Positions 2,016 through 26,554 of a DNA stretch of 35,844 nt are shown here, piece by piece; within the stretch, counting starts at the first letter, position 1; every line of letters begins with the position of its first letter. The position numbers were made by a program, and so were the translations under genes. The stretch lies in contig VBKF01000103.1 of NCBI GenBank assembly GCA_005888095.1, positions 1 to 35,844 of the forward strand, given 5' to 3'. Origin of the DNA: Deltaproteobacteria bacterium (lineage in GTDB: Bacteria > Desulfobacterota > Binatia > DP-6). Under the pieces are notes generated by a model, which saw nothing but the letters and a program-made list of their open reading frames with translations, ran no database searches and had not been told where the DNA came from.

Positions 2016-2086
2016 GGGCGCAGGCGCCGTTCTAGCCGCGCCCTGGCGGCCGCTCAAACCACGCACCTCCACGCTCGTCGCGCGGG

Positions 2087-2353
2087 TCAGCTCGTGCCGG
2101 CGTGCGCGGCGAGGTAGTCGAGGAGCTCACGCTCCTCGTGCGCGCTGAGCCACGGGAGACGCCGCTGGGCGAACAGGCCGTGCATGCGCTCGATCTGCGC
2201 CTGCCACATCGGGAACGTCATGCTGCCCGGCGCGTAGAGCCGATGGCAGCCACCGCACCGCGCGCGCAAGACGGCCGCCCCCGGCGCGTCGGGATCGGGG
2301 AGGGCCGGCCCGCAGCCGAGGGCGGCCGCCAAAGCGAAGAGCGCGGCCCTCAG
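2087..2353 (-). CDS. Small monoheme cytochrome c-like (lipo)protein
   Basis: A small protein with one CGGCH heme c attachment motif, followed by a downstream Met (SMTFPMW) that could be the distal heme ligand and a C-terminal helix typical of short c-type cytochromes. Heme attachment requires export. A TTG at 2332 starts inside the hydrophobic stretch, whereas reading upstream in frame gives LRAALFALAAALGCG, a lipoprotein-like leader. The only upstream start candidate before the overlap region is a CTG at 2353, which would overlap the stop of the pterin enzyme as CTGA. I therefore place the start at 2353 with reservation; the TTG at 2332 is the alternative. The partner redox protein is not in the window. 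Confidence 0.6.
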   Translation of the reverse strand: MRAALFALAAALGCGPALPDPDAPGAAVLRARCGGCHRLYAPGSMTFPMWQAQIERMHGLFAQRRLPWLSAHEERELLDYLAAHAGTS

Positions 2354-2847
2354 AACGCCTCGCGGCAGTACGCCACCTGACCCGGCGCCTCGGCCACGCC
2401 GACCTCCAGCGACACGAAGGCCCGGCCGCCCGCTTCCGCGCGCAGCGCGTCGCGCAGCCGCCCGAGGAGGTAGGCCGCGAGCTCCTCCGCGGAGCTGTGT
2501 GCGATCGGCAGCAGCCGCACGTCGCTCTCGGGGAAGCAGAAGCGCTCGCCGCCGCTGGTGATCACCTCGACGGCGCCCTCGGTCCGCACCGCGGTCAGGC
2601 AGTCGCTCTCGAGCGGGAGCAGCACGCGCTCGTCGAGCTCGCGGCAGAGCTCGTGCGCCACCCGCTTCACCAGCCCGAAGTCCAGCACGTAGCCCTCCGG
2701 ACCGAGCTCCGCCTCGACGCGGACCGAGACCTGGTAGTTGTGGCCATGGAGCGGCTCGCGGAAGCCGGGGTAGGCGATGAAGTGGGCTGCCGAGAACTTG
2801 AGGTAGTCCTTCGCGACCACCACGCTGTAGCGCTGCGGCGCGGCCAT
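2350..2847 (-). CDS. 6-pyruvoyl-tetrahydropterin synthase family protein, PTPS-III type
   Basis: A 165-residue PTPS/QueD fold protein. The zinc-binding histidines are visible: H22 in FSAAHF, and H34 and H36 in LHGHNY. QueD enzymes have CxxxHGH here; this protein has no cysteine but E31 in the spacing ExxHGH. In the family literature this is the PTPS-III signature, in which glutamate replaces the catalytic cysteine and the enzyme makes 6-hydroxymethyl-7,8-dihydropterin from dihydroneopterin triphosphate, bypassing FolB in folate synthesis. That function is inferred from the motif. The ATG at 2847 fits the family length. Its stop overlaps the presumed start of the cytochrome-like gene. No queuosine genes are nearby, which also argues against QueD. 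Confidence 0.85.
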   Translation of the reverse strand: MAAPQRYSVVVAKDYLKFSAAHFIAYPGFREPLHGHNYQVSVRVEAELGPEGYVLDFGLVKRVAHELCRELDERVLLPLESDCLTAVRTEGAVEVITSGGERFCFPESDVRLLPIAHSSAEELAAYLLGRLRDALRAEAGGRAFVSLEVGVAEAPGQVAYCREAF

Positions 2848-2881
2848 TGAGGAAACTGTAGCAGGCCGACAGCGTGGTCGG

Positions 2882-3562
2882 TCAACTGGCCGCCGCGGAA
2901 CGGCGAGCGCGTGCCGCGCGGCGAGCGAGCCGGAGCGCGACCAGGCCCGCCATGGGTGCCAGGAGGATCCACGTCGTCAGCCAGATCGGCGCGCCCCCGA
3001 CGGCCGCGCCTACGTACGTGAAGCTGCCGACCTTCGGGAGCTCTCCGAGGGCGGTCGCGAGCATGAACCAGTGGAACTGGAGCCGGACGAGCCCGCAGCC
3101 GTAGCTGACCGCGTCGAAGAAAGGCGGCAGGAGCACGCGCAGCGACAGGACGGTGAGGAAGGTCGTGCCGGACCGGGTGCTGACGTACTCGTCGACCGCG
3201 GCGAGGCGCTGCGTGCGGACGAACCGTTCGGCGAAGGGACGCCCGAGCGCGCGTGCCAGGCCGAAGCAGGCGCTCGCCCCCAGGAGCAGCCCGACCCAGC
3301 CGATGCCGAAGCCGACCCATGGTCCGTAGACGTAACCCGCCGCCATCAGCAGCGGCGGCGACGGCAGCGGCGCCACCACGGCCTGCGCGACGAGGAGTGC
3401 GATCAGTGTCAACGGACCGAGCGCGCCCGACGCACGCACCCGGTCGGCGATCCGCGCGGCGTCGAGGTGCGTGAGGTCGACGGAAACCCCCGCGACCGTC
3501 AGGACGACGGCCGCCCCGGCGAGGGCGACGAGCGCGGCAATCCTCGGCGCCGAGGTCGCCAT
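2882..3562 (-). CDS. TVP38/TMEM64 (VTT/SNARE-associated) family membrane protein
   Basis: A 226-residue integral membrane protein. It has an N-terminal membrane anchor (residues ~8-26), then a VTT-type core with the Pro/Gly-rich re-entrant segment LPSPPLLMAAGYVYGPWVG and the GLLLGASACFGLARALGR segment typical of the DedA/TVP38 superfamily. A conserved-type FLTVLSLRVLLPPFFDAVSYGCGL stretch follows, then C-terminal membrane helices and a basic tail. Members are thought to act in lipid or membrane homeostasis; the bacterial role here is not established. It stands 34 bases upstream of the pterin gene on the same strand. The start at 3562 gives the expected N-terminal helix. Confidence 0.8.
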   Translation of the reverse strand: MATSAPRIAALVALAGAAVVLTVAGVSVDLTHLDAARIADRVRASGALGPLTLIALLVAQAVVAPLPSPPLLMAAGYVYGPWVGFGIGWVGLLLGASACFGLARALGRPFAERFVRTQRLAAVDEYVSTRSGTTFLTVLSLRVLLPPFFDAVSYGCGLVRLQFHWFMLATALGELPKVGSFTYVGAAVGGAPIWLTTWILLAPMAGLVALRLARRAARARRSAAAS

Positions 3563-3625
3563 GCCGGGCGCCTATACGATGGCGGGACGAAGCCGAGCAA
3601 CATGCCATGCAGCGGCGATCGTCAA

Positions 3626-3802
3626 TCAGGCGGCGACGGCCCCGAACTCTTCGAGGGCGAAGCGGGCGCCGCGGAAGTTTCCCGCCAGGCGGACCTTGCC
3701 CGAGTTCACCAGGTAGACGACGGTGGCGATCACCTCCGCTTCGGTGCGCGCGAAGTCGGAGATCGCCGTCACGAGATCCAGCAGGGTGACATGCTTTGCC
3801 AT
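3626..3802 (-). CDS. Small conserved-type hypothetical protein, 58 aa (copy 2 of a two-copy family)
   Basis: A 58-residue protein, MAKHVTLLDLVTAISDF onward, ending EEFGAVAA before a TGA. It has a clear Shine-Dalgarno (GGAGG, about 8 bases before the ATG). It matches the 60-residue protein at 313-495 along its whole length: VTLLDLV, AR.EAE, ATVVYLVN.G, VRL.G.F.G.RF. Conservation between two separate loci is good evidence that both are real genes despite their size. It lies about 108 bases downstream of hpnE on the same strand and 63 bases upstream of the TVP38-like gene, so it may be read from the hopanoid transcript. Function unknown; a winged-helix-like fold is possible. Confidence 0.75.
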   Translation of the reverse strand: MAKHVTLLDLVTAISDFARTEAEVIATVVYLVNSGKVRLAGNFRGARFALEEFGAVAA

Positions 3803-3910
3803 CGCGTTCCCTCCTCGGCTTCCCGTTGGAGCAATCCCGATGCCAGCAGCGGCGCGCCGCCGGAGCTGGGTCCGGTGCCAAGCGCGCTTATCGGCCTGCT
3901 AACTCCGTTG

Positions 3911-5305
3911 CTACGTGGCGGGCGCCGCCGCTCTGCCGCGCGACAGCACCGGCACGGGCCGCGCCCGCGACGCCACCGCCTCGAGGGCGCGATCCGCCGC
4001 CGCACGGCCGGACAGGACGGCGCTCTCGATCGTCGCCGGCAGGCCGGTCTGGATCCAGTCCCCCGCGAGGAAGAGGTTCGGGAGGGGTGTCTCGACGCCC
4101 GGTCTCGCGGCGTCGGCAGCCGGCGTGAGCGAGAGCGTGGCGTGCCGCTCGCGGATGACGAGCGTGCGCCGCACGCGGGCTGCCTGCACGGCCGGCAGGA
4201 CGGCGGCCGCGTCGGCCAGGACCTCGGCAGCGATCTCGTCGTCGCCGGCGTCGTCCCAGAACCGCGCGCCGCTCGTGACGCTCGCCAAACGGTGGCCGCC
4301 GCCGGCCGCCGGACCGCAGTCGAACAGCCACTGCGCGCGGCCGCCGAGGAGCCCGAGGAAGGGCGCGCCCCAGGCGACGGGGCGGTCGAGCCAGAGGTGC
4401 ACGCTGACGATCGGCGAGGTCCCGACGGCGGCGAGGGAGCGGAAGGGATGCGCGTCGCGGAGCGGCGCCGGGACCAGCCGGAGCAGCGCCGCCACCGGAA
4501 CGGCGAGCACGACGGCGTCCGCCTCGACGCGCCTCCCGTCGCGCAGGACGAGCGCCTCGACGCCGTCCCGGCCGAGCGCCAGCGTCGCCGCGGCGGCACC
4601 GGTCACCACCGTGCCGCCCGCCTGCTCGAGGGTTCGCCGCGCGTCGGTCGTGTACAGCTCCGAGAGCGGCACACGCGCGAGCGCGAAGCGCGCGGCGCGG
4701 GCGCCCGCGAAGAAGGCCTTGCGGAGGACCGCGGCGAACGGCGCCGCCGCCGCCACCTCGGGCGTCTCGTTGAGCGTCGCGATCGCCAGCGGGTGCCAGA
4801 ATCGCGCGCATGCGGCGCCCCGCTGCCCGACCCTCGCCAGGGCCGCAGCCACCGTGGTGCCGGCGAGCGACGCCGGCGCGCGGGCGGCCAGCCGGACCGC
4901 CCCCACGAGCAGCCGCACCCGGTCGCCCGGGGCGAGCAGCCGATAGCGGAGCAGCGCCGCGGGGGCCTGGAGCGGGCCGGGCAGCGGCGGAGCGGCGACG
5001 GCGCCGAGGCCGAGCGCCGGATCGGCGAGCGCGACGTGCAGGCGCCGCTGGAAGGCGAGCTTCGATCCGGCGCCGATCTCGGCGAGGAAGTCGAGCGCCG
5101 CCGCGTAGGCGCCCATGAGCGCGTGCGGCCCGTTGTCGACCACGTCGCCGGTGGCGGGATCGGTGAAGGAGTAGGCGCGGCCGCCGAGGAACGGCCGGCG
5201 CTCGAGCAGGGTCACGCGCGCGCCGCCACGGGCGAGGCGCACGGCCGCCGCGAGGCCCGCGAAGCCGCCGCCCACCACCGCGACGTGCGGCGGCCCGGCG
5301 CTCAT
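3911..5305 (-). CDS. hpnE: Hydroxysqualene dehydroxylase
   Basis: A 464-residue FAD-dependent amine-oxidase-fold protein that converts hydroxysqualene to squalene, the third step of the HpnCDE route. The dinucleotide-binding motif VVGGGFAGLAAA is at residues 10-21, followed by the LLERRPFLGGRAYSF segment that positions FAD in the squalene/phytoene desaturase family. The C-terminal FAD motif LFLAGDWIQTGLPATIESAV is also present. Phytoene desaturase (CrtI) was considered, but the length and the position directly after hpnC and hpnD fit HpnE. Its ATG overlaps the hpnD stop as ATGA, so the two are translationally coupled. It is the last recognisable enzyme of the mevalonate-hopanoid operon. Confidence 0.9.
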   Translation of the reverse strand: MSAGPPHVAVVGGGFAGLAAAVRLARGGARVTLLERRPFLGGRAYSFTDPATGDVVDNGPHALMGAYAAALDFLAEIGAGSKLAFQRRLHVALADPALGLGAVAAPPLPGPLQAPAALLRYRLLAPGDRVRLLVGAVRLAARAPASLAGTTVAAALARVGQRGAACARFWHPLAIATLNETPEVAAAAPFAAVLRKAFFAGARAARFALARVPLSELYTTDARRTLEQAGGTVVTGAAAATLALGRDGVEALVLRDGRRVEADAVVLAVPVAALLRLVPAPLRDAHPFRSLAAVGTSPIVSVHLWLDRPVAWGAPFLGLLGGRAQWLFDCGPAAGGGHRLASVTSGARFWDDAGDDEIAAEVLADAAAVLPAVQAARVRRTLVIRERHATLSLTPAADAARPGVETPLPNLFLAGDWIQTGLPATIESAVLSGRAAADRALEAVASRARPVPVLSRGRAAAPAT

Positions 5306-6201
5306 CCCGTCAGCCGGTAGAGGAAGCTCAGATGCGGGCGCGCCCAGGCCGCCATGGCGAGGGCCGCCTTCTCCGGCCGCGTGAGCCGCACCTTCGGCCC
5401 GAAGACGTCATAGTGCCGGAACATCACCCGGCGCAGCAGCTGCTCGTAGATGAGACGCATCGCCTCGGCAGGCGCGAGCGCCGGCCGGTCCTCCTCCGCG
5501 AGCAGGAAGCGCGCGCGGCCGTAGTGCTCACCGGCGCGCGCACACTCGAACGCCATCACACCCTGAAACGCCTCGGTGCACCGTCCCGCGAGCACGTCGT
5601 CCTCCCGGCAGTCGAAGCGCCGGAGGTCCTCGCGCGGCAGGTAGATGCGGCCGCGGCGCGCGTCCTCGGCCACGTCGCGCAGGATGTTGGTCAGCTGGAA
5701 GGCAAGCCCGAGGTGCACGGCGTACTGGCGCGCCGAGGGGTTCTGGTAGCCGAAGATCTCGATCGCGATGAGACCCACCGAGCTGGCCACCCGATGGCAG
5801 TACTCGGCGAGGTCCCCCTCCCACGTCTCGTAGCGGTCCCGCCGCAGGTCCGTCTCGACGCCCGTGATGACGGCCTCGAAGTGCTCGCGCGCGATGGCGA
5901 AGCGCTCGACCGTGTCGGCCAGCGCGACGCCGATCGGGTGGCGCGGCCGGCCCGCGTAGACGGCGTCGAGCTCCGCGCGCCAGCGCGCGAGGAGCCGCGC
6001 CGGATCGGGCGTGCCGCCGGGCTCGTCCGCGATGTCGTCGGCCGCGCGGCAGAACGCGTAGACGGCGCACAGCGAGCGGCGGCGCTCCGGCGTGAGCAGC
6101 CGGAAGCCCCAGTAGAAGTTCGACGCGGCACGGCGCGTGCGGGCGGCACAGTACTCGTATGCCGCGCCGAGCGGGGTGGTGGCGACGGCGGCCGTGCTCA
6201 T
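5302..6201 (-). CDS. hpnD: Presqualene diphosphate synthase HpnD
   Basis: A 299-residue trans-isoprenyl diphosphate synthase-fold enzyme that condenses two FPP to presqualene diphosphate. The first Mg-binding Asp cluster is ADDIADE (residues 54-60). The second is in LTNILRDVAEDARRGRIYLP, the HpnD pattern (HpnC has LTNFWQDV at this point). The open frame extends upstream to 6855, but that part is a shadow of hpnC. The ATG at 6201 overlaps the hpnC stop as ATGA and gives the family length. It is coupled at its own end to hpnE in the same way. Confidence 0.93.
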   Translation of the reverse strand: MSTAAVATTPLGAAYEYCAARTRRAASNFYWGFRLLTPERRRSLCAVYAFCRAADDIADEPGGTPDPARLLARWRAELDAVYAGRPRHPIGVALADTVERFAIAREHFEAVITGVETDLRRDRYETWEGDLAEYCHRVASSVGLIAIEIFGYQNPSARQYAVHLGLAFQLTNILRDVAEDARRGRIYLPREDLRRFDCREDDVLAGRCTEAFQGVMAFECARAGEHYGRARFLLAEEDRPALAPAEAMRLIYEQLLRRVMFRHYDVFGPKVRLTRPEKAALAMAAWARPHLSFLYRLTG

Positions 6202-7088
6202 CGCCAGAGCCCTCGCACGACGAGCCGCAGCAGGTCGCCGCGCCCGAGCGTCGGCCGGCGCGCGAAGACGTCGTAGCCGGCGGCCTCGATGCGGGCGAGG
6301 ATGGCGAGGCCGCCGCGGGCGAAGATGCGGACCTCGTGCCGGAGCCGCCGCCCGACCATGTCGGCGAGCGGCAGGCCGCGCTCGAACAGCGCGCGGGTAC
6401 GGGGGACCTCGAACGCGAGCAGGTCGCGGAAGCCCGCGTTCACGCGGCGCGTGGCGAGCGCCTCGTGGCTCCCGGGGCAGCGCGCGAGATCCTCCTCCGG
6501 CAGGTAGACGCGGCCGCGGTCGAGGTCGCCCGCCACGTCCTGCCAGAAGTTGGTCAGCTGGAGCGCCGTGCAGATGTCGTCGGCGCGGCTCTGGCGCGCG
6601 GCGTCGCGATGGCCGAAGAGCGCGAGCACGAGCCGCCCGACGGGATTGGCCGAGCAGCGGCAGTAGCCGAGCAGGTCGGCGAAGGTGGCGAAGCGACGGG
6701 TCTCGCCGGCGGCGTCGCGACGGAACGCCTCGAGGAGGTCGCGGAAGGGCTCGAGCGGCAGCGCGCGTGCGGCGATGGTGTGGCCGAGCGCCAGGAAGAC
6801 GGGATCGCCGGCGGCGCCCGGGTCGCGCGCGCAGGCGAGGAGCTTCGCTTCCCACGCCTGCAACCGCTCGAGCCTGCCCGTCGCCTCCCCCTCGTCGGCG
6901 ATGTCGTCCGCGCCCCGCGCAAAGGCGTATACCGCCGCGAGGTCCTGGCGCAGCCGCCGCGGCAGCAGCCAGGAGCCGATCGTGAAGTTCTCGTAGTGCG
7001 TGCGCGCGACGCGGGCGCAGTGCGCGTAGGCGGCCGCCACCTCGACGCCGCCGGGCTCGCGGCTCCGTTCCGCCGGCACCGCGCTCAT
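6198..7088 (-). CDS. hpnC: Hydroxysqualene synthase HpnC
   Basis: A 296-residue squalene/phytoene synthase-fold enzyme. In the HpnCDE route HpnC turns presqualene diphosphate into hydroxysqualene. The first Asp-rich motif, ADDIADE, starts at residue 60 and the second is LTNFWQDVAGDLDRGRVYLP. The N-terminal HYENFTIGSWLLPRRLR and the SANPVGRLVL segment are characteristic of HpnC rather than HpnD. The ATG at 7088 lies 4 bases after the squalene-hopene cyclase stop. The gene is thus placed between the cyclase and hpnD, as in many hopanoid clusters. Confidence 0.93.
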   Translation of the reverse strand: MSAVPAERSREPGGVEVAAAYAHCARVARTHYENFTIGSWLLPRRLRQDLAAVYAFARGADDIADEGEATGRLERLQAWEAKLLACARDPGAAGDPVFLALGHTIAARALPLEPFRDLLEAFRRDAAGETRRFATFADLLGYCRCSANPVGRLVLALFGHRDAARQSRADDICTALQLTNFWQDVAGDLDRGRVYLPEEDLARCPGSHEALATRRVNAGFRDLLAFEVPRTRALFERGLPLADMVGRRLRHEVRIFARGGLAILARIEAAGYDVFARRPTLGRGDLLRLVVRGLWR

Positions 7089-7092
7089 GCCG

Positions 7093-9048
7093 TCATCCTT
7101 CGCCCCTGGCCGCCAGCCGGGCGCGGTACTGGCCGAGCGCCATCAGCGGGAAGTAGTGACGGTAGAGGTGGTAGCGGAGGTAGAAGTGGCGCGGGAAGCC
7201 CGTGCCGGTGAAGAGACGCTCCTGCCACGTGCCGTCCGGGCCCTGCGTGCGGACGAGCCAGTCGACGCCACGCTCGACGGCGGGGCTCGACGGGCCATCG
7301 GCGGCGAGCAGGCCGAGGAGAGCCCACGCGGTCTGCGACGGCGTGCTCTCGCCCTTCCCCGCGAGCGATTCGTCGTCGTACGAGGCCACCGTCTCGCCCC
7401 AGCCGCCGTCGGGGTTCTGGTGGGTGGCGAGCCACTCGACGGCGCGCCGCACGTAAGGCGCCCGCATGTCCTCGCCGATCCGCTCGAGCCCGGCGAGCGC
7501 GCCCCAGGTCCCATAGATGAAGTTGACGCCCCACCGCCCCCACCAGCTCCCATCGCTGCGCTGCGTGCGGCGCAGGAACTCGACCGCCCGCCGGGCCCGC
7601 CCGAAGTCGAGCCGGTAGCCGATGGTCCCCATCAGGTGCAGCACGCGTCCGGTCACGTCCTCGGTCGGCGGGTCGATCATCGCCTCCATGTCGGCGAACG
7701 GGATCCGGTTGAGGAACGCGGCCGTGTTGTCGGTGTCGAAGGCGGCCCAGCCGCCGGTGCGGCTCTGCATGCCGAGGGTCCAGTTGAGCCCGTAGGCGAT
7801 CGCCCGCCGCCCGGCCGCCGTCTCGGCGGCGGGGAGCGCGTCGAGCACCGTCAGGATCACGGCCGAGTCGTCGACGTCGGGGTACCAGTCGTTGGCGAAC
7901 TCGAACGCCCATCCGCCCGGCTCGAGCGTCGGGTTGAGCACCGCCCAGTCGCCGGGGCGGAAGATCTGGTTCGCGACGAGCCACTCGGCGGCGCGGCCGA
8001 GCGCGGGGTGCGCGGGGTCGAGGCCGGCATCGAGCAGCGCCCTGGCCGCCAAAGCCGTGTCCCAGTTGGGCGACACGCAGGGCTGGTACATGAGCGTGCC
8101 CTCGCACTCGACCAGGAAGTCCTCCACGCCCTGGATGCCGCTCATCATCGCCGGATGATCGGCCGCGAAGCCGACGGCGTGGAGCGCGAGCACGGAGTTC
8201 ACCATCGCGGGCTGGATGCCGCCCCACTGGCCGTTGGTGTCCTGGTGGCGCAGGAGCCACTCGATCGCGCGCGCCACGGCGCGGCGGCGCAGCCCGCGCC
8301 AGGAGAGGGGAGCGAGCGTCTTCAGCGCGCGGTCGACGGCGAGGAAGAAGTTGCGCGTCGTGACCAGCTCGGGCGAGCGCGCGAAGGCCAGGTCGTCGCG
8401 CGTCGGCGCCCGCAGCCAGAGCTCGGCCACGGCCGCCTCCGCCGGGAGCCGCACCGACGGGCGGTGCGCCAGGAGGAGCGTGAGCGGCACCACCGTCCCG
8501 CGCGCCCAGCTCGACATCGCGTAGATGTTGAGCGGGAACCAGGGCGGCAGCAGGACGAGCTCGACGGGCATGGAGGGCACGCCGGCCCACGGGAACTGGC
8601 CGAAGTAGGCGAGCCAGATGCGCGTGAAGACCCCGGCGCGGGCGAGCCCGCCACGGCCGAGGATGAAGTCGCGGGCGCGGACGAGCGCCGGCTCCGTCGC
8701 GCTCATCCCGGTCAGCTTGAGGGCGAAATACGCCTCGATCGTGGTGGACGGGCCGCCAGGCCCGTTGTGATAAATCGGCCAGCTCCCGTCCGCCTGCTGG
8801 AGCGCCAGCAGCCGCTCCGCCAGGCGCCGCTCGACGTCGGGCCGCTCGCGGCCGAGCAGGCGATTGAAGAAGACGTACTCGGCCTCCATGGTGGCGTTCG
8901 CCTCGAGCGGCGCATGCCAGTAGCCGCGCGCGTGCTGCGTGGCGAAGAGATACTGGCTGGCGCGCGTGATCGCTTGCGCCACGCGGGCAGCGAGGCCCTC
9001 CCCCGCCGTGCCGCCCACCAGTGTCAGCCGTCCCTCCGACGCGCTCAT
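7093..9048 (-). CDS. shc: Squalene-hopene cyclase
   Basis: A 651-residue membrane-associated terpene cyclase that folds squalene into hopene/hopanol. The catalytic acid motif DxDD is seen as DVDD at residues 391-394, in PDVDDSAVILTVL. Several QW repeats stabilise the alpha-barrels: QQADGSW, QDTNGQWGG, QRSDGSWWGRWG, QNPDGGWGE and QGPDGTWQE. Length matches bacterial SHC. The ATG at 9048 follows the mevalonate kinase stop by 3 bases. The ribosome-binding sequence (GCGAAGGA) is inside the end of the kinase gene and is part of an 18-base sequence repeated at another junction of this operon. Confidence 0.95.
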   Translation of the reverse strand: MSASEGRLTLVGGTAGEGLAARVAQAITRASQYLFATQHARGYWHAPLEANATMEAEYVFFNRLLGRERPDVERRLAERLLALQQADGSWPIYHNGPGGPSTTIEAYFALKLTGMSATEPALVRARDFILGRGGLARAGVFTRIWLAYFGQFPWAGVPSMPVELVLLPPWFPLNIYAMSSWARGTVVPLTLLLAHRPSVRLPAEAAVAELWLRAPTRDDLAFARSPELVTTRNFFLAVDRALKTLAPLSWRGLRRRAVARAIEWLLRHQDTNGQWGGIQPAMVNSVLALHAVGFAADHPAMMSGIQGVEDFLVECEGTLMYQPCVSPNWDTALAARALLDAGLDPAHPALGRAAEWLVANQIFRPGDWAVLNPTLEPGGWAFEFANDWYPDVDDSAVILTVLDALPAAETAAGRRAIAYGLNWTLGMQSRTGGWAAFDTDNTAAFLNRIPFADMEAMIDPPTEDVTGRVLHLMGTIGYRLDFGRARRAVEFLRRTQRSDGSWWGRWGVNFIYGTWGALAGLERIGEDMRAPYVRRAVEWLATHQNPDGGWGETVASYDDESLAGKGESTPSQTAWALLGLLAADGPSSPAVERGVDWLVRTQGPDGTWQERLFTGTGFPRHFYLRYHLYRHYFPLMALGQYRARLAARGEG

Positions 9049-9051
9049 CTA

Positions 9052-9990
9052 TTAATATCCTTCGCTCGCGCTCACGGCCGCTGCCTCCGTCGCCGCGCCG
9101 ACGTGCGCGACGATCGTCTGCGTGCCGTCGGCGCCGAGCGCCGCGGCCAGCCGCTCGGGCGCGCGGGCGAGCGCGATCACCGCGCCGCCCGCCCCGCCAC
9201 CCGTCAGCTTCGCGCCGAGGGCGCCCGACGCCCGCGCCCGGGCAACGAGCGCCTCGACCTCGGGCGCCGACACGCCGAGCGCCTCGAGCAGCGCCTGGTT
9301 GCGGTCGAAGGCGCGGCCGAGGGCGGCGAGGTCGCCCGCCTCGGCGGCGCGCGCGCCGTCCTCCACCGTGGTCGCCACCGCGTCGAACAGCGCCTCGTGC
9401 CGCGCCGGCTCGGCTTCCCAGCGCGCGCGCAGCCCCATGACCGCGGCGCCGGTGCTGCGCGGCCGCGCGCCGAAGGCGATCACCAGCGGCAGCGGCACGG
9501 CGGGCCGCACCGGTGCGATCACCGCCGGCGTCCCGCGCACGAACCGGAAGCAGCCGCCGAGGGCGGCCGCGGCCGGGTCGATGCCCGAGGGGTGACCGTG
9601 GAAGATCGCCTCGAGGCGCGTGGCGATGGCGACCTCCTCGTCGCGCACGAGCCGCCGCCCCGCGGCGGCCGCGAGGGCGCGCAGGACGGCCACGGCCAGC
9701 GCCGCCGAGCTGCCGACCCCGACGCCCGCCGGCAGCTCCGAGCGGACCCGGACGACGACGTCCCGCGGCTCGAGTCCGACCGCGGCTGCGGCCTCGGCGA
9801 CGAGCCGCGCGGACCGCGGGTCGTCCGTGTACCCGTCGCTCTCGAGCCGTGCCGGCCCGTGGCCGGCCACGGCCTCCGCCTCGAGCCCGAGCGGCAGCCC
9901 GGCCGCTAGCGCCGGACGACCGTAGACCACGGCGTGCTCCCCGAGGAGGATGACCTTGCCCGCGGCGCGTCCGCGAGCGGGCAGCCTCAC
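9052..9990 (-). CDS. mvk: Mevalonate kinase
   Basis: A 312-residue GHMP kinase that phosphorylates mevalonate. The N-terminal AAGKVILLGEHAVVYGRPAL is the mevalonate kinase signature, followed by the ATP-binding loop PAGVGVGSSAALAVA and the C-terminal KLTGGGAGGAVIAL motif. FHGHPSGIDPAAAALGG holds the catalytic Asp region. A longer open frame reaches 10647, but it is antisense-free read-through over the reductase gene. The GTG at 9990 overlaps the reductase stop as GTGA and places the first beta strand correctly. The last codons (VSASEGY) belong to an 18-base repeat discussed in the findings. Confidence 0.92.
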   Translation of the reverse strand: MRLPARGRAAGKVILLGEHAVVYGRPALAAGLPLGLEAEAVAGHGPARLESDGYTDDPRSARLVAEAAAAVGLEPRDVVVRVRSELPAGVGVGSSAALAVAVLRALAAAAGRRLVRDEEVAIATRLEAIFHGHPSGIDPAAAALGGCFRFVRGTPAVIAPVRPAVPLPLVIAFGARPRSTGAAVMGLRARWEAEPARHEALFDAVATTVEDGARAAEAGDLAALGRAFDRNQALLEALGVSAPEVEALVARARASGALGAKLTGGGAGGAVIALARAPERLAAALGADGTQTIVAHVGAATEAAAVSASEGY

Positions 9991-11270
9991 GAGCGCGGCT
10001 CCAGCGCGCGCAGCAGCTCGCGCGCGCGGTCGATCTTCACCTCGCCCGCCGCCAGCAGGCGGCGGCGCAGCTCCTCCGCTTCCTCGCCTCGCGCCCCCGC
10101 GGCATGCGACACCGCACGCGCGTGAAGCGCCATGTGCCCCTTCTGGATGCCCTCGGTGGCCAGCGCGCGCATCGCCGCCAGGTTCGAGGCGAGCCCGACG
10201 GCCGCCATGATCCCGGCGAGCTCGCGGGCGCTCGACACGCCGAGGATGCGCAGCGCGAGGCGCACGCGCGGATGCGACTGCACCACCGGGCCCACGGTGG
10301 ACACCGCCACCGGCAGCTCGAGAGAGCCGACGAGGTGGCGCTTCTCGATCTCCCAGCGGCTGAGCGAGCCGTAGGCGCCGTCGCGGCACGCGTAGGCGTG
10401 CGCCCCCGCCTCGATCGCGCGCCAGTCGTTCCCCGTCGCGACGGCCAGCGCGTCGATGCCGTTCATGATGCCCTTGTTGTGCGTGGCGGCCCGGTAGGGG
10501 TCGGCCGCCGCGAACTCGTACGCGTAGAGGACCCGCTCGGCCACCTCGGCGCCGTCCTGCCCGTCGCGCTCGAGCGCCGAGAAGGGGATGCGGACCGCGG
10601 CGCGCGCCAGGCGCCGGTCGGCGAGGTTCGAGAGGATGCGGAGGCACGCCGTGCCGCCCGCGATCTCCTCGACCATGGGCGAGAGCGCCTCGACGAGCGA
10701 GTTGACGGCGTTGGCGCCCATCGCGTCGCCGGTGTCGAGGAGCATGTGCACGACCACCATGGTCTCGCCCCGCGGCGAGCGCACGAGCCGCACCTCGACG
10801 TCGCGCGGCCCGGCGCCGCGCCGGCAGAGCCCCGGCGTCGCCTCCTCGGCGGCGGCGAGGAGCCGGGCGCGTGCCGCCCCGAGGCGCTCGACCGCCGCGC
10901 CCGGGTCGGGGACGTTGACGAGCTGGATCTGGCCGATCATCGCCCCGGGGTCGGCCTCGGCGACGAAGCCACCGCCGGCCCGCGCGATCAGCGCGGCGTA
11001 CGAGGCCGCAGCGACCACCGACGGCTCCTCGATCACCATCGGAATCACGCGGTCGCGCCCATTCACCTGGAAGTTGAGCGCCACGCCGAATGGCAGGGCG
11101 AACGTGCCGACGGCGTTCTCGATCATGATGTCGGCGACATCGAGCGGCAGGGCGTCCGCCGCGGTCAGCGCCTCGACGTCGGCGGCCGACAGATCCAGCG
11201 CCTCGGCGAGCCGCCGGCGCCGCTCGTCCACGGTGAGCTGGTAGAACGCCGGAATGCGTGACGTACTCAT
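9987..11270 (-). CDS. mvaA: Hydroxymethylglutaryl-CoA reductase, class II (degradative-type sequence)
   Basis: A 427-residue class II HMG-CoA reductase, nearly the length of the Pseudomonas mevalonii enzyme (428). Catalytic residues line up: E81/E82 in EEPSVVAA, K266 in HNKGIMNG, D182 in the nucleotide-loop motif DAMGANAVNS, and H379 in KGHMALHA. Class II enzymes often prefer NADH, but preference cannot be read here. In this operon, next to all the kinases, the role must be biosynthetic (HMG-CoA to mevalonate). The ATG at 11270 overlaps the isomerase stop as ATGA. HMG-CoA synthase is absent from the window. Confidence 0.94.
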   Translation of the reverse strand: MSTSRIPAFYQLTVDERRRRLAEALDLSAADVEALTAADALPLDVADIMIENAVGTFALPFGVALNFQVNGRDRVIPMVIEEPSVVAAASYAALIARAGGGFVAEADPGAMIGQIQLVNVPDPGAAVERLGAARARLLAAAEEATPGLCRRGAGPRDVEVRLVRSPRGETMVVVHMLLDTGDAMGANAVNSLVEALSPMVEEIAGGTACLRILSNLADRRLARAAVRIPFSALERDGQDGAEVAERVLYAYEFAAADPYRAATHNKGIMNGIDALAVATGNDWRAIEAGAHAYACRDGAYGSLSRWEIEKRHLVGSLELPVAVSTVGPVVQSHPRVRLALRILGVSSARELAGIMAAVGLASNLAAMRALATEGIQKGHMALHARAVSHAAGARGEEAEELRRRLLAAGEVKIDRARELLRALEPRS

Positions 11271-12322
11271 GCGCCTCCTTCCGCAGCGAGCCAGTCTCTC
11301 AGCCGGCCTCCGAGGACCACGGGCGCCCGCCCGAGGGCCTCGAGCTCGCGTGAGCCGGTGAGCACCATCGCCAGCTTGAGACCGGCGACGAGACGGTCGA
11401 CGTACGCGCCGGCCGCCTCGACGCCGCCCTCGCGGTAGGCGCGGAAGATCGGCAGGGCCACGCCCGCCGCGCGCGCGCCGAGCGCGATCGCCTTGGCGAC
11501 GTCGAGCCCGGTGCGGATGCCGCCGCTCGCGATCAGCTCGAGGCCGAGGCCGCGGAGCGCGATGAGGGTGGCCGCCGTCGGGATGCCCCAGTCGGCGAAC
11601 AGCGCCCCGAGCTCGCGCTCGCGGCTCCCGGCGCGCAGCGCCTCGACCTTCACCCACGACGTCCCGCCCGCACCCGACACGTCGGCCGTGCGGACGCCCG
11701 CGGCCTTGAGACGCTCGCCGACGCCGCGCGAGAGCCCACAGCCCGTCTCCTTGACGACGATGGGGAGCGGCAGCTCGCGCACGAGGCGCGCGAGCGTCGC
11801 GAGGCCCTGTCGGAAGTCCCGGTCGCCATTCGCCTGGATCATCTCCTGGGCGGGATTCAAGTGGATGCAGACGGCGTCGGCCCCGACCGCCCGGGCGAGC
11901 CGCTCGACCTCGCCCGCCGGCAGCGCCGCGGCCTGCACGATGCCGAGGTTGGCGAGCACCAGCGCCGTCGGCGCATGCTCGCGGACCGCGAAGGTGTGCG
12001 CCAGCTCGGGCGTGCGATGCATCGCGCGCTGCGAGCCGAGCCCGAAGCCGATGCCGTGCGACTCCGCGACCTGCGCCAGGCCGCGGTTGATCGCCGACGC
12101 CTCCTCGGTCCCGCCGGTCATGCCGCTGATGAGCAGCGGCGCGCGGAGCCGCTTGCCGAGCAGCGTGGTGCCGACGTCGACCTCGTCGACCGCCAGCTCG
12201 GGGAGCGCGTTGTGGACGAGGTCGACCTCCTCGAGGAGCGTCGTCTTGCCGGCGTACTCGACCTCCGCCGCCTCGCAGAGCTCGAGGTGGGAGCGCTTGC
12301 GGTCGCTGATCGTCTCAGCCAC
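11267..12322 (-). CDS. fni: Type 2 isopentenyl-diphosphate delta-isomerase (FMN-dependent)
   Basis: A 351-residue TIM-barrel flavoenzyme interconverting IPP and DMAPP, using FMN, a reduced nicotinamide and Mg2+. The N-terminal ISDRKRSHLELC, the APLLISGMTGG segment, GLGSQRAM, the glycine-rich VSGAGGTSWVKVE and the FMN phosphate site SGGIRTGLDVAKAIALGA are all typical of Fni. The start is a GTG at 12322 that overlaps the end of phosphomevalonate kinase by 8 bases. It sits between the kinase and HMG-CoA reductase, as in several bacterial mevalonate clusters. Confidence 0.95.
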   Translation of the reverse strand: MAETISDRKRSHLELCEAAEVEYAGKTTLLEEVDLVHNALPELAVDEVDVGTTLLGKRLRAPLLISGMTGGTEEASAINRGLAQVAESHGIGFGLGSQRAMHRTPELAHTFAVREHAPTALVLANLGIVQAAALPAGEVERLARAVGADAVCIHLNPAQEMIQANGDRDFRQGLATLARLVRELPLPIVVKETGCGLSRGVGERLKAAGVRTADVSGAGGTSWVKVEALRAGSRERELGALFADWGIPTAATLIALRGLGLELIASGGIRTGLDVAKAIALGARAAGVALPIFRAYREGGVEAAGAYVDRLVAGLKLAMVLTGSRELEALGRAPVVLGGRLRDWLAAEGGA

Positions 12323-13310
12323 TCGTCACCCCCTCGGGCGCGATGGCGACCGGCAGCGGCACGATGCCTGCCTCCTGCCAGGCGGTCCGCACGCGTGCCG
12401 CCTGCGCGGCCGAGGCCGCGAGCGCGATGCCGCAGTCGCCCGCGCCGGCACCCGAAGGCTTCGCGACCGCCCCCACCCGCCGCGCCGCGGCCACCAGACG
12501 CGCGAGCGCCGGAGTGACGATCGGGATGTCCACCTCCGAGCCGAGCTGCGCGAGGAGATCCGCCGAGCGGTCGACGGCGTCCGCCAGCGCCTGCGCGTCG
12601 CCGCGCTCGATCGCCTCGGCGGCCCGGAGCGCCACCTCGCGGAGCGGGCCGAGGCTGCGCGGCTCGCGCGCCGCCGCCGCGGCAAAGCGCGCGAGGAGGA
12701 GCCCCGTCGGCGCCGGCTCGCCGGTCCAGCCTGCCACCAGATGGATGCCGCGCGGCAGCGCGCGGGCGTGGACGCGCAGCCCCGGGTCTTTTCTGCGTAC
12801 CTCGACCACCCCTCCGTGCACCGCCGCCGCGAGGTCCGCGCCGCTGCCGCGACCATTCTGGAAGAGCGCGTTGGCCGCGAGCGCGCGCTCGAGGATGCCG
12901 TCGCGCGTCGGCCGGCCGCTGGTCGCGAGGAAGGCCGCCACGGCCGCCGTCAGCGTCGCGCTGCTGCGGCCGAGCCCGAGCTTCCGCTCGCCGACGAGGA
13001 AGGGACGCGAGTCGACGACGACCTCGGCGCCCAGGTGGGCGGGCACGCCGCCCCGCTCGGCGACCGCGTGCAGCGCGGCGAGCACCACGCCCGCGTCACC
13101 GCCCGGCATCTCGTTGCGCCGGGCGGGCGCCTCCCACGAGGTGCCCTCGGCGAGCGAGCGGACGATGAGCGGCCCCGGCTTCTCGCCGAGCGTCACCCGC
13201 ACCTCGGCATGGCGGTCGACCGCGGCGATCACGGCCGGGGCGCCCATCAGGACCACGTACTCGCCGCTCAAGAAGAGCTTCCCCGGCGCGCGCGCCGCGG
13301 CCTCGGTCAA
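12315..13310 (-). CDS. Phosphomevalonate kinase
   Basis: A GHMP kinase of 331 residues that converts 5-phosphomevalonate to the diphosphate. The N-terminal ARAPGKLFLSGEYVVLMG is the usual phosphomevalonate kinase start. The ATP loop is KLGLGRSSATLTAAVAA and the third GHMP motif is KPSGAGAGDCGIALA. I chose the TTG at 13310 because GAAGGA stands 6 bases upstream and the first strand then begins where family members do. In-frame GTGs at 13334 and 13340 are alternatives; the latter would overlap the mvaD stop as GTGA and add 10 residues (VSVSASEGHR), with a GAGG upstream. Confidence 0.88.
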   Translation of the reverse strand: MTEAAARAPGKLFLSGEYVVLMGAPAVIAAVDRHAEVRVTLGEKPGPLIVRSLAEGTSWEAPARRNEMPGGDAGVVLAALHAVAERGGVPAHLGAEVVVDSRPFLVGERKLGLGRSSATLTAAVAAFLATSGRPTRDGILERALAANALFQNGRGSGADLAAAVHGGVVEVRRKDPGLRVHARALPRGIHLVAGWTGEPAPTGLLLARFAAAAAREPRSLGPLREVALRAAEAIERGDAQALADAVDRSADLLAQLGSEVDIPIVTPALARLVAAARRVGAVAKPSGAGAGDCGIALAASAAQAARVRTAWQEAGIVPLPVAIAPEGVTSG

Positions 13311-13336
13311 TCTATGTCCTTCGCTCGCGCTCACGC

Positions 13337-14314
13337 TCACGCGACCACCTCGGCGCCACGGCCCGGCCCGCACGCGAGGATGCGCGCGACGCCCGGCACC
13401 GCCTCGAGCGCCGCCGCCACGCGCGCCGCGTCGGCCGGCGCGCAGAGCACCTTCACCTGGGGCCCGGCATCGATGGTGAAGAAGGCGGCCACCCCCTCGG
13501 CGCGGAGCGCCCACACGCGATGCATGCACTCGACCGTCGCCGCGCGCCAGTAGACGAGCGGCGGCCGTGCCGCGAGCGCCGCCGCGTGCATCTTGAGGGC
13601 GCTGTGCTCGGCGACCAGGCCGAGCGCTTCGATATCGCGGGCACGGATCGCCGCCCGCGCCTCGGCGAGGTCCGCCTCTGCGCCGGCGACCCAGGCGGGA
13701 TAGAACGGCGAGGCCGCCGTGCGCAGCATGCCGTCGCGCGAGGACACGGCCTTCGGGGCCGTGCTGGTGACCGCGACGACCGTGCGGAGGTCCCAGTGGT
13801 CGATGGGGGCGAGCGGCTCGGCGAACGAATCGACGCCGTCCGCCCGCTCGCCCCGATGCCACTCGACGAAGCCGCCGAAGATCGAGCGCGCTGCCGATCC
13901 CGAGCCGCGCCGGGCAAGCGCGGAGAGTGCCGAGGGGTCGAGCGTCAGGCCCGCCGCGCGGCTCGCGGCGAGCGCCAGCGCGGCGAACGCCGCCGCCGAC
14001 GACGCGAGCCCGATGCCGCGGGGCACCGTGCTGCGCATCACGACCTTCGCCTCGCGGCGGCGGGCCGCCGCGCGGACGAGGTCGAGGAAGCGCACGACCC
14101 GCTTGGCCTCCTCGCCGGCGGCGTCGACCCCATCGATCACGACGTGATCGGCCTCGCCAGCGCCGAAGTCGACCGCGGCCTCCACCCCGAGCCCGTCGAG
14201 GGTGAGCGAGATGCTGCCCGTGGCCGGGAGGTTCAGCGCCGGGTCGCGCTTGCCCCAGTACTTGACCAGGGCGACGTTCACGTTGGCGCGAGCGGTCGAG
14301 TCGGCGCCGACCAT
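13337..14314 (-). CDS. mvaD: Diphosphomevalonate decarboxylase
   Basis: A 325-residue GHMP-superfamily enzyme that performs the ATP-dependent decarboxylation of diphosphomevalonate to IPP. The signature NVALVKYWGKRD is at the N-terminus, followed by NLPATGSISLTL and the phosphate loop RGIGLASSAAAFAALALAAS. I chose the ATG at 14314, which places the signature about as far from the start as in other MvaD proteins and gives the usual length (~325). A GTG at 14353 would add 13 residues. Neither has a strong Shine-Dalgarno. This is the first gene of the minus-strand mevalonate-hopanoid operon. Confidence 0.92.
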   Translation of the reverse strand: MVGADSTARANVNVALVKYWGKRDPALNLPATGSISLTLDGLGVEAAVDFGAGEADHVVIDGVDAAGEEAKRVVRFLDLVRAAARRREAKVVMRSTVPRGIGLASSAAAFAALALAASRAAGLTLDPSALSALARRGSGSAARSIFGGFVEWHRGERADGVDSFAEPLAPIDHWDLRTVVAVTSTAPKAVSSRDGMLRTAASPFYPAWVAGAEADLAEARAAIRARDIEALGLVAEHSALKMHAAALAARPPLVYWRAATVECMHRVWALRAEGVAAFFTIDAGPQVKVLCAPADAARVAAALEAVPGVARILACGPGRGAEVVA

Positions 14315-14364
14315 CTGAATGGTGGGCTCTTGTAACGCGTTAAGTCCGTCCACGCACGTCCACG

Positions 14365-14398
14365 GCCTGACCGATCACTCTAAACCGATCGGTCAGGC
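14365..14398. promoter_or_regulatory. Inverted repeat upstream of the mevalonate-hopanoid operon, possible operator
   Basis: Perfect 12-base arms GCCTGACCGATC and GATCGGTCAGGC are separated by a 10-base spacer. The right arm contains the 10-base palindrome ACCGATCGGT at 14384-14393, the type of core bound by many TetR-family repressors. The repeat begins 12 bases upstream of the GTG at 14353 and about 50 bases upstream of the preferred mvaD ATG, in the only sizeable gap before the operon. A role as repressor site is inferred. A 7-base A-run (14406-14412) lies just beyond it. I could not fix a -35/-10 pair with confidence. Confidence 0.5.
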
Positions 14399-14491
14399 GC
14401 CTTCCCAAAAAAATCCCGTGGGCCAGGACGAGTTTCTCCCGCCAACGGGCGAGTTCAAAATTGTCGAATCACCGCGCGTATAGAGGCTCGG

Positions 14492-15025
14492 TCAGGTGCT
14501 GTCAACGTCCCCCGCCCCGAGCGCGTGAAAGAGGCTCGACTCGCGCTGGTAGAACCCCTGCGTGTGCAGCGAATCACGCAGGCGGAGGTAGGTGTAGTCG
14601 AGGTGGTGGCAGATCTCGTGCAGCAGGGTGCGAAGAAACGTCCGGTAGGCAACCACCTGACCGCGCTTGGCGGTGATCATCCACACGCGGATGACGTCCC
14701 GGGCGCGGCCGTTGGCGGGCGTGTAGAGCCCGTGCAGCTCGCCTCGCCGCGTCGGTGGACGCCGCAGCTCCACGCGCACTCGAACCGCCGGCACACGGAG
14801 CGCGGTGCAGATGCCGTCACCGATGCGCTGCGCGACCGCCTGAACGTCCTCGGGCCGTCCCGTTGCGAGCGCCGCCGGCAACGCCGCGACGGCCTCCCGC
14901 AGCGCCGAACCCGACGCCAGGGGCACCGACGTCACCCGGTCGCTCGCCGCGGCGACGCGCTGCAGCGCGGGCGGCAACCGTCGATACCAGGTGGGACGGA
15001 CGGGCGGACGAAACTCGACGGCCAT
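14492..15025 (-). CDS. Putative zinc metallopeptidase-like (zincin) protein
   Basis: A 177-residue protein with a gluzincin-type HEICHHLDY motif near residue 140, fitting HExxH (H, E and H as zinc ligands and general base) followed by a second histidine. Further on, DSLHTQGFYQRESSLFHAL contains other candidate ligands. No signal peptide is visible. The family is uncharacterised to my knowledge, so protease activity is inferred only from the motif. The open frame extends far upstream to 16429, but that part is antisense to the methyltransferase, so the ATG at 15025 is the start. It is divergent from the methyltransferase, with 60 bases between starts. Confidence 0.75.
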   Translation of the reverse strand: MAVEFRPPVRPTWYRRLPPALQRVAAASDRVTSVPLASGSALREAVAALPAALATGRPEDVQAVAQRIGDGICTALRVPAVRVRVELRRPPTRRGELHGLYTPANGRARDVIRVWMITAKRGQVVAYRTFLRTLLHEICHHLDYTYLRLRDSLHTQGFYQRESSLFHALGAGDVDST

Positions 15026-25033: not shown

Positions 25034-25105
25034 GAGCGCGACCCAAGACTTCTTGGGTCGCGAACCGGACGCGAGGGTGTTCCGTCGGGATCACGCCCGA
25101 CTGTC

Positions 25106-25135
25106 CTGCCGCGGCTGGCGAAGCCAGCGCGGCAG
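25106..25135 (+). repeat. Internal inverted repeat of the MITE-like element, left copy
   Basis: Left copy of a 30-base block, itself a near-perfect hairpin (GCTGGC, gaa, GCCAGC core). The right copy is at 25232-25261 in opposite orientation with a single terminal mismatch. Confidence 0.85.
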
Positions 25136-25231
25136 ACGAACACGCGCGTTTCCACGGCCGCCGCAGACCGGCCCAATCGCCAACCGGTACGCATCAGCGC
25201 CGCGAGACCTCTGGAACGGCGCGTGTCCGTT

Positions 25232-25261
25232 CTGCCGCGCTGGCTTCGCCAGCCGCGGCAC
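25232..25261 (-). repeat. Internal inverted repeat of the MITE-like element, right copy
   Basis: Inverted counterpart of the 25106-25135 block; 29 of 30 bases match by eye. Together the two make the element a long interrupted palindrome. Confidence 0.85.
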
Positions 25262-25411
25262 GGCGGTCGCGCGTGCCGCGAGCGCCACATGCTCGCGTCC
25301 GTGCCCGCGACCCAAGAAGTCTTGGGTCGCGCTCCTAGGCTTCGAGCACGGCTTCGTCGATAGTGACACTCGAACGGCCGTGGCATAGTGTCGGGCAGGA
25401 GGAGGGGGACC

Positions 25412-26550
<1,139 letters not shown>

Positions 26551-26554
<4 letters not shown>

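Follow-up and report, generated by a model that had tools for sequence, protein, structure and literature searches.

Probable displacement of the HMG-CoA synthase of a mevalonate-hopanoid operon by a distantly related, archaeal-type enzyme set in one bacterial genus

RESULTS

Gene content and organization of the locus

The window analyzed here is the whole stretch of 35,844 nucleotides, with a G+C content of approximately 74%, from contig VBKF01000103.1 of a Deltaproteobacteria bacterium (GenBank assembly GCA_005888095.1). Its genome, designated G000, belongs to family f1 and was compared with a sample of its class comprising up to 148 genomes. The window harbors nine intact, co-oriented reading frames on the minus strand, running from 14314 to 3911, that correspond to a mevalonate pathway and a hopanoid pathway: mvaD, pmk, fni, the gene for class II 3-hydroxy-3-methylglutaryl coenzyme A (HMG-CoA) reductase (HMGR), mvk, shc, hpnC, hpnD, and hpnE (Table 1). 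In the order of transcription, the junctions measure +26, -8, -4, -4, +3, +4, -4, and -4 bases; the first value presumes that pmk starts at the TTG at 13310, which has GAAGGA upstream, and would be 2 with the GTG at 13334. A preliminary description of this DNA had proposed that the nine genes form one compact unit, and our results agree with this in that all are present and intact, with junctions of -8 to +26.

Gene families were assigned by comparing profile scores with curated NCBIfam cut-offs, and eight of the nine genes exceed the cut-off of the expected family. The exception is pmk, for which TIGR01220 is the best match even though the score lies below its cut-off, and which occupies the same position in relatives. 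The classical mevalonate route is accordingly represented by four of five enzymes over the cut-off (HMGR, mevalonate kinase, diphosphomevalonate decarboxylase, and isopentenyl diphosphate [IPP] isomerase) and by phosphomevalonate kinase as a best match. MvaD carries a YWGK motif, which fits the Tyr and Lys given for classical decarboxylases in the accessible part of PMC3857490. On the hopanoid side, HpnC, HpnD, HpnE, and Shc are all above the cut-off, Shc retains its acid motif DVDD (DVDDSA at residue 391), and HpnH is encoded elsewhere in the genome; the step given for HpnC in Table 1 follows the accessible part of PMC5462960. The nine genes remain under purifying selection, with ratios of nonsynonymous to synonymous substitution rates of 0.10 to 0.27 against relative G001 and 0.08 to 0.27 against relative G002 (G001 against G002, 0.10 to 0.27).

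Judging from their spacing and conserved order, the nine genes would be transcribed as one unit. Its promoter would likely lie in the 177-base region upstream of mvaD, which is bordered by a co-oriented frame (14492 to 15025) whose relative also precedes mvaD in six family relatives. No sigma-70-like site was found on either strand between 3000 and 15200 (0.2 expected), a result that says little at this G+C content, and the two terminator-like sites of the scanned region, which overlap at 14432 to 14413, are at chance level (2.0 expected). As a gap of 348 bases follows hpnE, the VTT-domain and 6-pyruvoyl-tetrahydropterin-synthase-like genes beyond it (3562 to 2350) are probably outside the unit.

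TABLE 1 Features of the operon in the window and of the candidate replacement set on contig C182 of G000
Feature	Description	Position	Strand	Profile, bits (cut-off)
Upstream region	177 bases between the mvaD ATG and the frame at 14492-15025	14315..14491	-	
mvaD	Diphosphomevalonate decarboxylase, 325 aa; first gene of the operon	13337..14314	-	TIGR01240, 257 (171)
pmk	Phosphomevalonate kinase; TTG start at 13310 preferred, GTG at 13334 also open	12315..13310	-	TIGR01220, 140 (166)
fni	Type 2 IPP isomerase, 351 aa	11267..12322	-	TIGR02151, 363 (281)
hmgr	Class II HMGR, 427 aa	9987..11270	-	TIGR00532, 396 (260)
mvk	Mevalonate kinase, 312 aa	9052..9990	-	TIGR00549, 205 (163)
shc	Squalene-hopene cyclase, 651 aa	7093..9048	-	TIGR01507, 796 (431)
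12-base scar	ATGACGGCATGA; overlaps the shc stop and the hpnC start	7085..7096	-	
hpnC	Presqualene diphosphate to hydroxysqualene step of the HpnCDE route	6198..7088	-	TIGR03464, 320 (250)
hpnD	Presqualene diphosphate synthase	5302..6201	-	TIGR03465, 307 (279)
hpnE	Hydroxysqualene dehydroxylase; last gene of the operon	3911..5305	-	TIGR03467, 399 (283)
tetR-type	TetR-type regulator	C182 (L033) 1623-2276		
HMGS	Archaeal-type HMG-CoA synthase	C182 (L033) 2273-3322		TIGR00748, 454 (353); NF003274, 488 (244)
Thiolase	Thiolase	C182 (L033) 3319-4464		NF004720, 426 (420); NF053570, 354 (600; below)
DUF35	DUF35 protein; zinc-ribbon and OB-fold domains, two CxxC pairs	C182 (L033) 4468-4860		

Conservation of gene order among relatives

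HMGR was searched for in 145 genomes and found in 29, including G000. Its neighborhood was compared at 19 loci from 17 genomes besides G000, the 11 HMGR-bearing genomes outside this comparison being G023, G030, G036, G050, G056, G057, G074, G081, G086, G091, and G100. Within the family, HMGR is 79 to 94% identical in G001 to G005 over nearly its full length and 84% identical over 342 residues in G006. A ten-gene order, mvaD-pmk-fni-hmgr-mvk-shc-HMGS-hpnC-hpnD-hpnE, with a gene for HMG-CoA synthase (HMGS) between shc and hpnC, is present on a single contig in G001, G002, G004, and G005 (f1), in G032 (f13), and in G075 (f15). The arrangement in G006, distributed over two contigs, is compatible with this order, and G100, fetched around its HMGS, has the stretch mvk-shc-HMGS-hpnC-hpnD-hpnE. 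The operon of G003 runs to hpnC with its HMGS broken in place (two frames, one internal stop), and another contig of this genome carries a second cluster, HMGR-shc-HMGS-hpnD-hpnE. This second cluster is more distant, and G003 (L037, 13610 to 14747, on G003:C4; L038 on G003:C7) is perhaps a second case of HMGS displacement in the family. The nine-gene order of the window, without HMGS, occurs in G038 and G087 (f15) and, up to a contig end in hpnD, in G096; PF01154, a profile of bacterial-type HMGS, was not found in these three genomes (loci L049, L046, and L048, respectively). The ancestral unit is one of ten genes, and nine is the derived number. The operon of the preliminary description stands as to its genes and their order; its count has to be amended by a tenth gene, which has left a scar.

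Because the order is conserved in relatives, the arrangement is not one of chance. The contrary proposal, that two neighboring operons, one for mevalonate and one for hopanoids, are adjacent by chance and have no functional link, finds support in family f6. HMGR loci of this family (G011, G017, G043, G062, G068, and G080) contain mevalonate genes only, and in G011, G017, and G080 the order is interrupted between mvk and shc, the two halves being found on different contigs, with shc-HMGS-hpnC (-hpnD-hpnE) on the second; G050 also has this latter stretch. No hopanoid gene was seen near HMGS in four other f6 genomes (G030, G036, G062, and G074), and the HMGS of G030, G036, and G062 is more distant (28 to 33%). 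However, the ten-gene order recurs in three families, its genes overlapping or separated by short gaps, and HMGS, an enzyme of the mevalonate route, sits within the hopanoid half, as it does in four f6 genomes as well (G011, G017, G050, and G080), so that we consider a chance adjacency quite improbable.

G001 harbors a second class II HMGR gene without the operon (L035, 8190 to 10489, on G001:C186; 61% identical), which directly adjoins a polyprenyl synthase gene and has an oxidoreductase-like frame alongside.

The missing HMG-CoA synthase gene and its scar

In G001, the gene between shc and hpnC (L034) encodes a 414-residue bacterial-type HMGS, which has TIGR01835 as its best match (342 bits; cut-off, 360), exceeds the cut-offs of PF01154 and PF08540, and shares an ATGA with each neighbor, at the stop of shc and at the start of hpnC. 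At this position G000 has the 12-base sequence ATGACGGCATGA, which, compared with L034 and other relatives, consists of the first two codons of HMGS, including its start, fused to its final codon and stop codon. A Shine-Dalgarno-like AAGGA now stands seven bases ahead of the hpnC ATG at the scar; the 300 bases before the scar (shc) and the 301 bases after it (hpnC) are 87% and 80% identical to G001, respectively. By this comparison, the absence of HMGS is a deletion within the operon, almost exactly from start to stop.

A bacterial-type HMGS was not found elsewhere in G000. With the L034 protein as the query, only partial matches were obtained, at 32% on contig C182 and 34% on contig C145; PF01154 has no match in G000, and PF08540 has only a marginal one on C182 (23.8 bits, or 26.1 with neighbors; cut-off, 25.1). 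As judged by TIGR01835 and PF01154, the bacterial type of this mevalonate pathway enzyme was found neither in the window nor in G000, and an archaeal type is present instead. PF01154 was tested in 42 genomes, 29 of which have HMGR; it was detected in 21 of these and in none of the 13 without HMGR. All six other family members carry it (G003 on its second cluster), and the eight HMGR-bearing genomes that lack it are G000, G023, G038, G056, G057, G081, G087, and G096. The preliminary description had called HMGS absent, which is accurate for the operon and agrees with the failure to find the bacterial type in G000; it missed the deletion and the set on C182 described below.

A candidate replacement on another contig

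Contig C182 encodes a TetR-type regulator, an archaeal-type HMGS, a thiolase, and a DUF35 protein (Table 1). The HMGS has as its best solved match the HMGS of the Methanothermococcus complex 6esq (1e-111; 51% over 346 positions), followed by PhlA (7e-56), and 6esq is also the first match of the DUF35 protein (1e-29). Catalytic-type stretches are retained, with Cys, His, and Glu in the HMGS and Cys and His in the thiolase, which we take to have the corresponding catalytic roles. The accessible part of PMC6392133 describes 6esq as consisting of thiolase, HMGS, and DUF35 subunits; three proteins of these families are encoded together on C182 and may form a complex of the same kind. HMGS of this type was detected at E <= 1e-60, with up to 14 candidates scored per genome, in only 1 of 148 class genomes, G000 itself. 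The next matches in the 42 genomes tested have approximately 40% identity or less, and one of them is on C145 of G000.

A scan of named genomes with the HMGR of the window, from which the best 80 of 585 loci were kept, provided a setting for this set. Among these best 80, 26 loci, all Chloroflexota by title or label, have an archaeal-type HMGS within approximately 7 kb of HMGR, and 15 of the 26 also have a thiolase and a DUF35 protein. These clusters are a precedent for an archaeal-type set in bacterial mevalonate synthesis, and the accessible part of PMC3857490 states that the class Chloroflexi lacks the 1-deoxy-D-xylulose 5-phosphate route and encodes mevalonate genes. The C182 set resembles them in its archaeal type and in its HMGS (55 to 63% identical), which in Chloroflexota lies beside class II HMGR, whereas in G000 the set lies away from the mevalonate operon. 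A tree was built from 37 proteins: the C182 HMGS, 24 of the 26 Chloroflexota proteins (those of L081 and L107, cut by contig ends, were left out by hand), one archaeal protein (6esq), and 11 chosen paralogues from the class. The C182 HMGS groups with the 24 Chloroflexota proteins and 6esq, apart from the 11 paralogues, with support of 100/100. Its position inside this clade is not firm, as it joins a Chloroflexus protein at 94/82, which is not a starred branch. The C182 set is the likely replacement of the operon HMGS.

Two other candidates were rejected. The HMGS-like protein on C145 falls below the cut-offs of TIGR00748 (160 against 353) and NF003274 (218 against 244), genomes that lack HMGR (e.g., G013 and G021) also encode proteins of its group, and the tree sets the paralogues apart at 100/100. 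At this locus (L253, 4566 to 7147, on G000:C145), the HMGS-like protein has a DUF35-like part in the same frame, with a thiolase adjoining, and the HMGS-like part has relatives widely across the class, including in genomes that lack HMGR. The thiolase of the window itself (25388 to 26554) looks FadA-type (NF006510, 485 bits; cut-off, 519; only the general TIGR01930 is exceeded) and is not clearly an acetoacetyl-CoA thiolase. Between its gene and a sulfatase-modifying-factor-type gene lies an imperfect palindrome of approximately 309 bases (25030 to 25338), 77% identical to its own reverse complement.

Origin of contig C182

If the missing HMGS were an artifact of assembly or binning, C182 would be a chimeric or foreign contig. 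G000 is a draft of 271 contigs with an estimated contamination of 2.37%, C182 is a short contig of 9,152 bases, and those stretches of it that have matches are distributed over three different contigs in G002, all of which would suit such an explanation. On the other hand, the scar joins start and stop codons cleanly between intact frames, and no fragment of a bacterial-type HMGS was found elsewhere in G000. Outside the set, C182 is 84 to 95% identical to two members of the genus over approximately 5 of its 9 kb: bases 2 to 1500 match G002 at 88%; bases 4859 to 7927 match G001 at 87% and, up to 7905, G002 at 84%; and bases 8020 to 8750 match G001 at 95% and G002 at 90%. For the region between 1500 and 4859, which contains the four-gene set, the seven family genomes yield only short and weaker matches outside C182 itself (67 to 86%, up to approximately 340 bases), and other genes lie upstream of the 4859-7927 block in G001 and G002. 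The G+C content of the set is 0.73, compared with 0.70 and 0.72 beside it, and its G+C content at third codon positions is 0.92 to 0.94, compared with 0.94 to 0.96 in the operon. Since both flanks match DNA of the genus, contamination was set aside as the source of C182, and an artifact is very improbable. The flanks and the similar base composition point to a late gain of the set in the G000 lineage rather than to a foreign contig, and the matches to three contigs in G002 imply that the region was also rearranged. The end of C182 (L033, 8985 to 9152) holds a dispersed repeat of approximately 150 to 170 bases, found at 90 to 94% identity on other contigs of G000 and in relatives.

Sources of isoprenoid precursors

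The preliminary description had suggested a look for genes of the 2-C-methyl-D-erythritol 4-phosphate (MEP) pathway in the genome. DXR and IspH were found in none of the seven family genomes, including G000 (Dxs, IspD, IspE, IspF, and IspG were not searched for), and the same searches responded in 10 of 14 control genomes, with scores over the cut-off in 10 for DXR and 9 for IspH. DXR was detected in 12 of 31 genomes, that is, in 8 of 8 without HMGR and in 4 of 23 with it (G032, G038, G075, and G081), and IspH in 17 of 42, comprising 12 of 13 without HMGR (the exception is G012) and 5 of 29 with it (G032, G038, G057, G075, and G096). Both markers are present in G032, G038, and G075 and neither in G087 and G100, and G081 has DXR without IspH. 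This distribution suggests that the MEP pathway is the common state of the class and that the f1 and f6 genomes tested lost it. According to the accessible part of PMC13001223, the MEP pathway occurs in 82.9%, the mevalonate pathway in 12.0%, and both in 2.4% of the species analyzed, with mevalonate genes more often in operons.

As DXR and IspH were not found, mevalonate is the only source of IPP detected in G000, and hopanoid carbon should derive from it. The preliminary description had proposed that the operon couples the supply of IPP and dimethylallyl diphosphate (DMAPP) to hopanoids as their sink. The compact, conserved unit and the failure to find DXR and IspH favor such a coupling; a supply reserved for hopanoids is not supported, because with no MEP pathway found to make the other isoprenoids, the same operon should, by established biochemistry, also feed those of quinones and the cell wall. 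Farnesyl diphosphate (FPP) synthase, correctly described as absent from the operon, is encoded on C117 (NF045485, 311 bits; cut-off, 275), with two more polyprenyl synthases on C91 and C104. HpnH is encoded on C109 (366 bits; cut-off, 225); no control genome has one above the cut-off.

DISCUSSION

The classical bacterial mevalonate cluster, of the Gram-positive type, comprises mvaK1-mvaD-mvaK2 with fni, mvaA, and mvaS. The operon of G000 has the same enzymes and the same route through phosphomevalonate kinase and diphosphomevalonate decarboxylase; it differs in that it continues unbroken into shc-hpnCDE and in that HMGS is missing, a gene which in relatives lies among the hopanoid genes. The hpnCDE-shc cluster in the accessible part of PMC5462960 has the same four genes side by side. 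The cultivated Acidobacteria genomes covered there all have the non-mevalonate route, and one SD22 environmental genome has most mevalonate genes in its place (Figure 7 of that paper). A figure legend of PMC12583986, on Alphaproteobacteria, assigns a color to mevalonate pathway genes in maps of hopanoid genes, and some linkage of the two pathways may already be in print. Among the best 80 of 585 named loci, no hpnC, hpnD, or hpnE was recognizable in the DNA covered, and a Shc-like gene (42%) stands beside mvaD and HMGR only in L116, with a weak match of 28 to 31% in L057. L116 (2236 to 7981), from a metagenome-assembled genome labeled Lysobacteraceae, has the Shc-like gene, mvaD, and HMGR on one strand and is possibly a separate mevalonate-triterpene cluster. 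Among the papers listed on the linked arrangement and on HMGS, its complex, and bacterial mevalonate synthesis, we found no description of the operon or of the swap; subscription papers were mostly outside this coverage, and there may be a precedent in view of the figure legends of PMC5462960 and PMC12583986. All of the parts are of known kinds.

Our results suggest, with a probability of approximately 0.7, that the operon HMGS was displaced within one genus by a distantly related enzyme set and that HMG-CoA is now supplied by the set on C182. The ancestral unit would have comprised ten genes, including one for a bacterial-type HMGS located between shc and hpnC. Once it had separated from G001, the nearest sampled relative by synonymous distance, the lineage of G000 would have gained the TetR-type regulator, the archaeal-type HMGS, an acetoacetyl-CoA-type thiolase, and the DUF35 protein; with HMG-CoA supplied from this set, the operon HMGS could then have been deleted, leaving the 12-base scar. 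In the resulting pathway, the C182 set would convert acetyl-CoA to acetoacetyl-CoA and HMG-CoA, the operon would lead through mevalonate to IPP and DMAPP, and the synthase on C117 would form FPP. Squalene would be produced by HpnD, HpnC, and HpnE, hopene by Shc, and adenosylhopane by HpnH.

Several observations weigh against this displacement. Five f15 genomes (G038, G057, G081, G087, and G096) and two f6 genomes (G023 and G056) have HMGR and likewise lack both PF01154 and a close archaeal-type HMGS, and therefore HMGS can be lost without a replacement of the C182 type. One of them, G087, is rated 99% complete, yet no DXR, IspH, or HMGS was found in it; either the class has another enzyme or another supply of HMG-CoA, or genes are missing from assemblies. 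HMG-CoA is an intermediate of leucine breakdown and could come from there, and traffic in the reverse direction, from HMG-CoA to isovaleryl-CoA, is described for Myxococcus in the accessible part of PMC9548883. Loss and gain are both seen in one draft assembly only, and of the two members of the genus that lack the set, G001 has a completeness rating of only 82% (G002, 99%). Finally, the set differs from the archaeal complex in having a bacterial host and its own TetR gene, which could point to a catabolic role, and its thiolase matches 7yvy (1.5e-113) better than 6esq (4e-77).

These points raise the possibility that the deletion is real and that HMG-CoA comes from leucine catabolism (in the direction of methylglutaconyl-CoA hydratase) or from an unrecognized synthase, while the C182 set catalyzes a different, perhaps catabolic, carbon-carbon bond reaction. 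Related systems of thiolase, HMGS-like, and DUF35 proteins do perform other chemistry, such as the PhlACB acylase in the accessible part of PMC6392133. However, the C182 HMGS exceeds the cut-offs of two curated HMGS profiles and resembles a genuine archaeal HMGS more closely than it does PhlA, sets of the same type lie beside HMGR in Chloroflexota, and the only one of 148 class genomes in which this HMGS was found is the one that lost the operon copy. We therefore regard a leucine-derived or otherwise separate supply as unlikely and prefer displacement by the C182 set.

A broader joint picture is tentative and, taken as a whole, rather doubtful. G032 and G075 combine the ten-gene operon with both MEP markers; in them, the operon might be a private mevalonate line for hopanoids while the MEP pathway serves the rest of the cell, and in G000 a substrate-channeling complex of the archaeal type might feed a bacterial operon that was cut of its native HMGS in one genus. 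Relatives with markers of both pathways allow a direct test of a hopanoid-reserved supply. The case of G000 would be a recent, nearly scar-perfect, nonorthologous displacement of a presumably essential enzyme, in which the earlier state is preserved in sister species and the likely replacement has been found. Hopanoids of the G000 lineage should carry labels of the mevalonate pattern, which bears on the interpretation of isotope labels and of hopane biomarkers.

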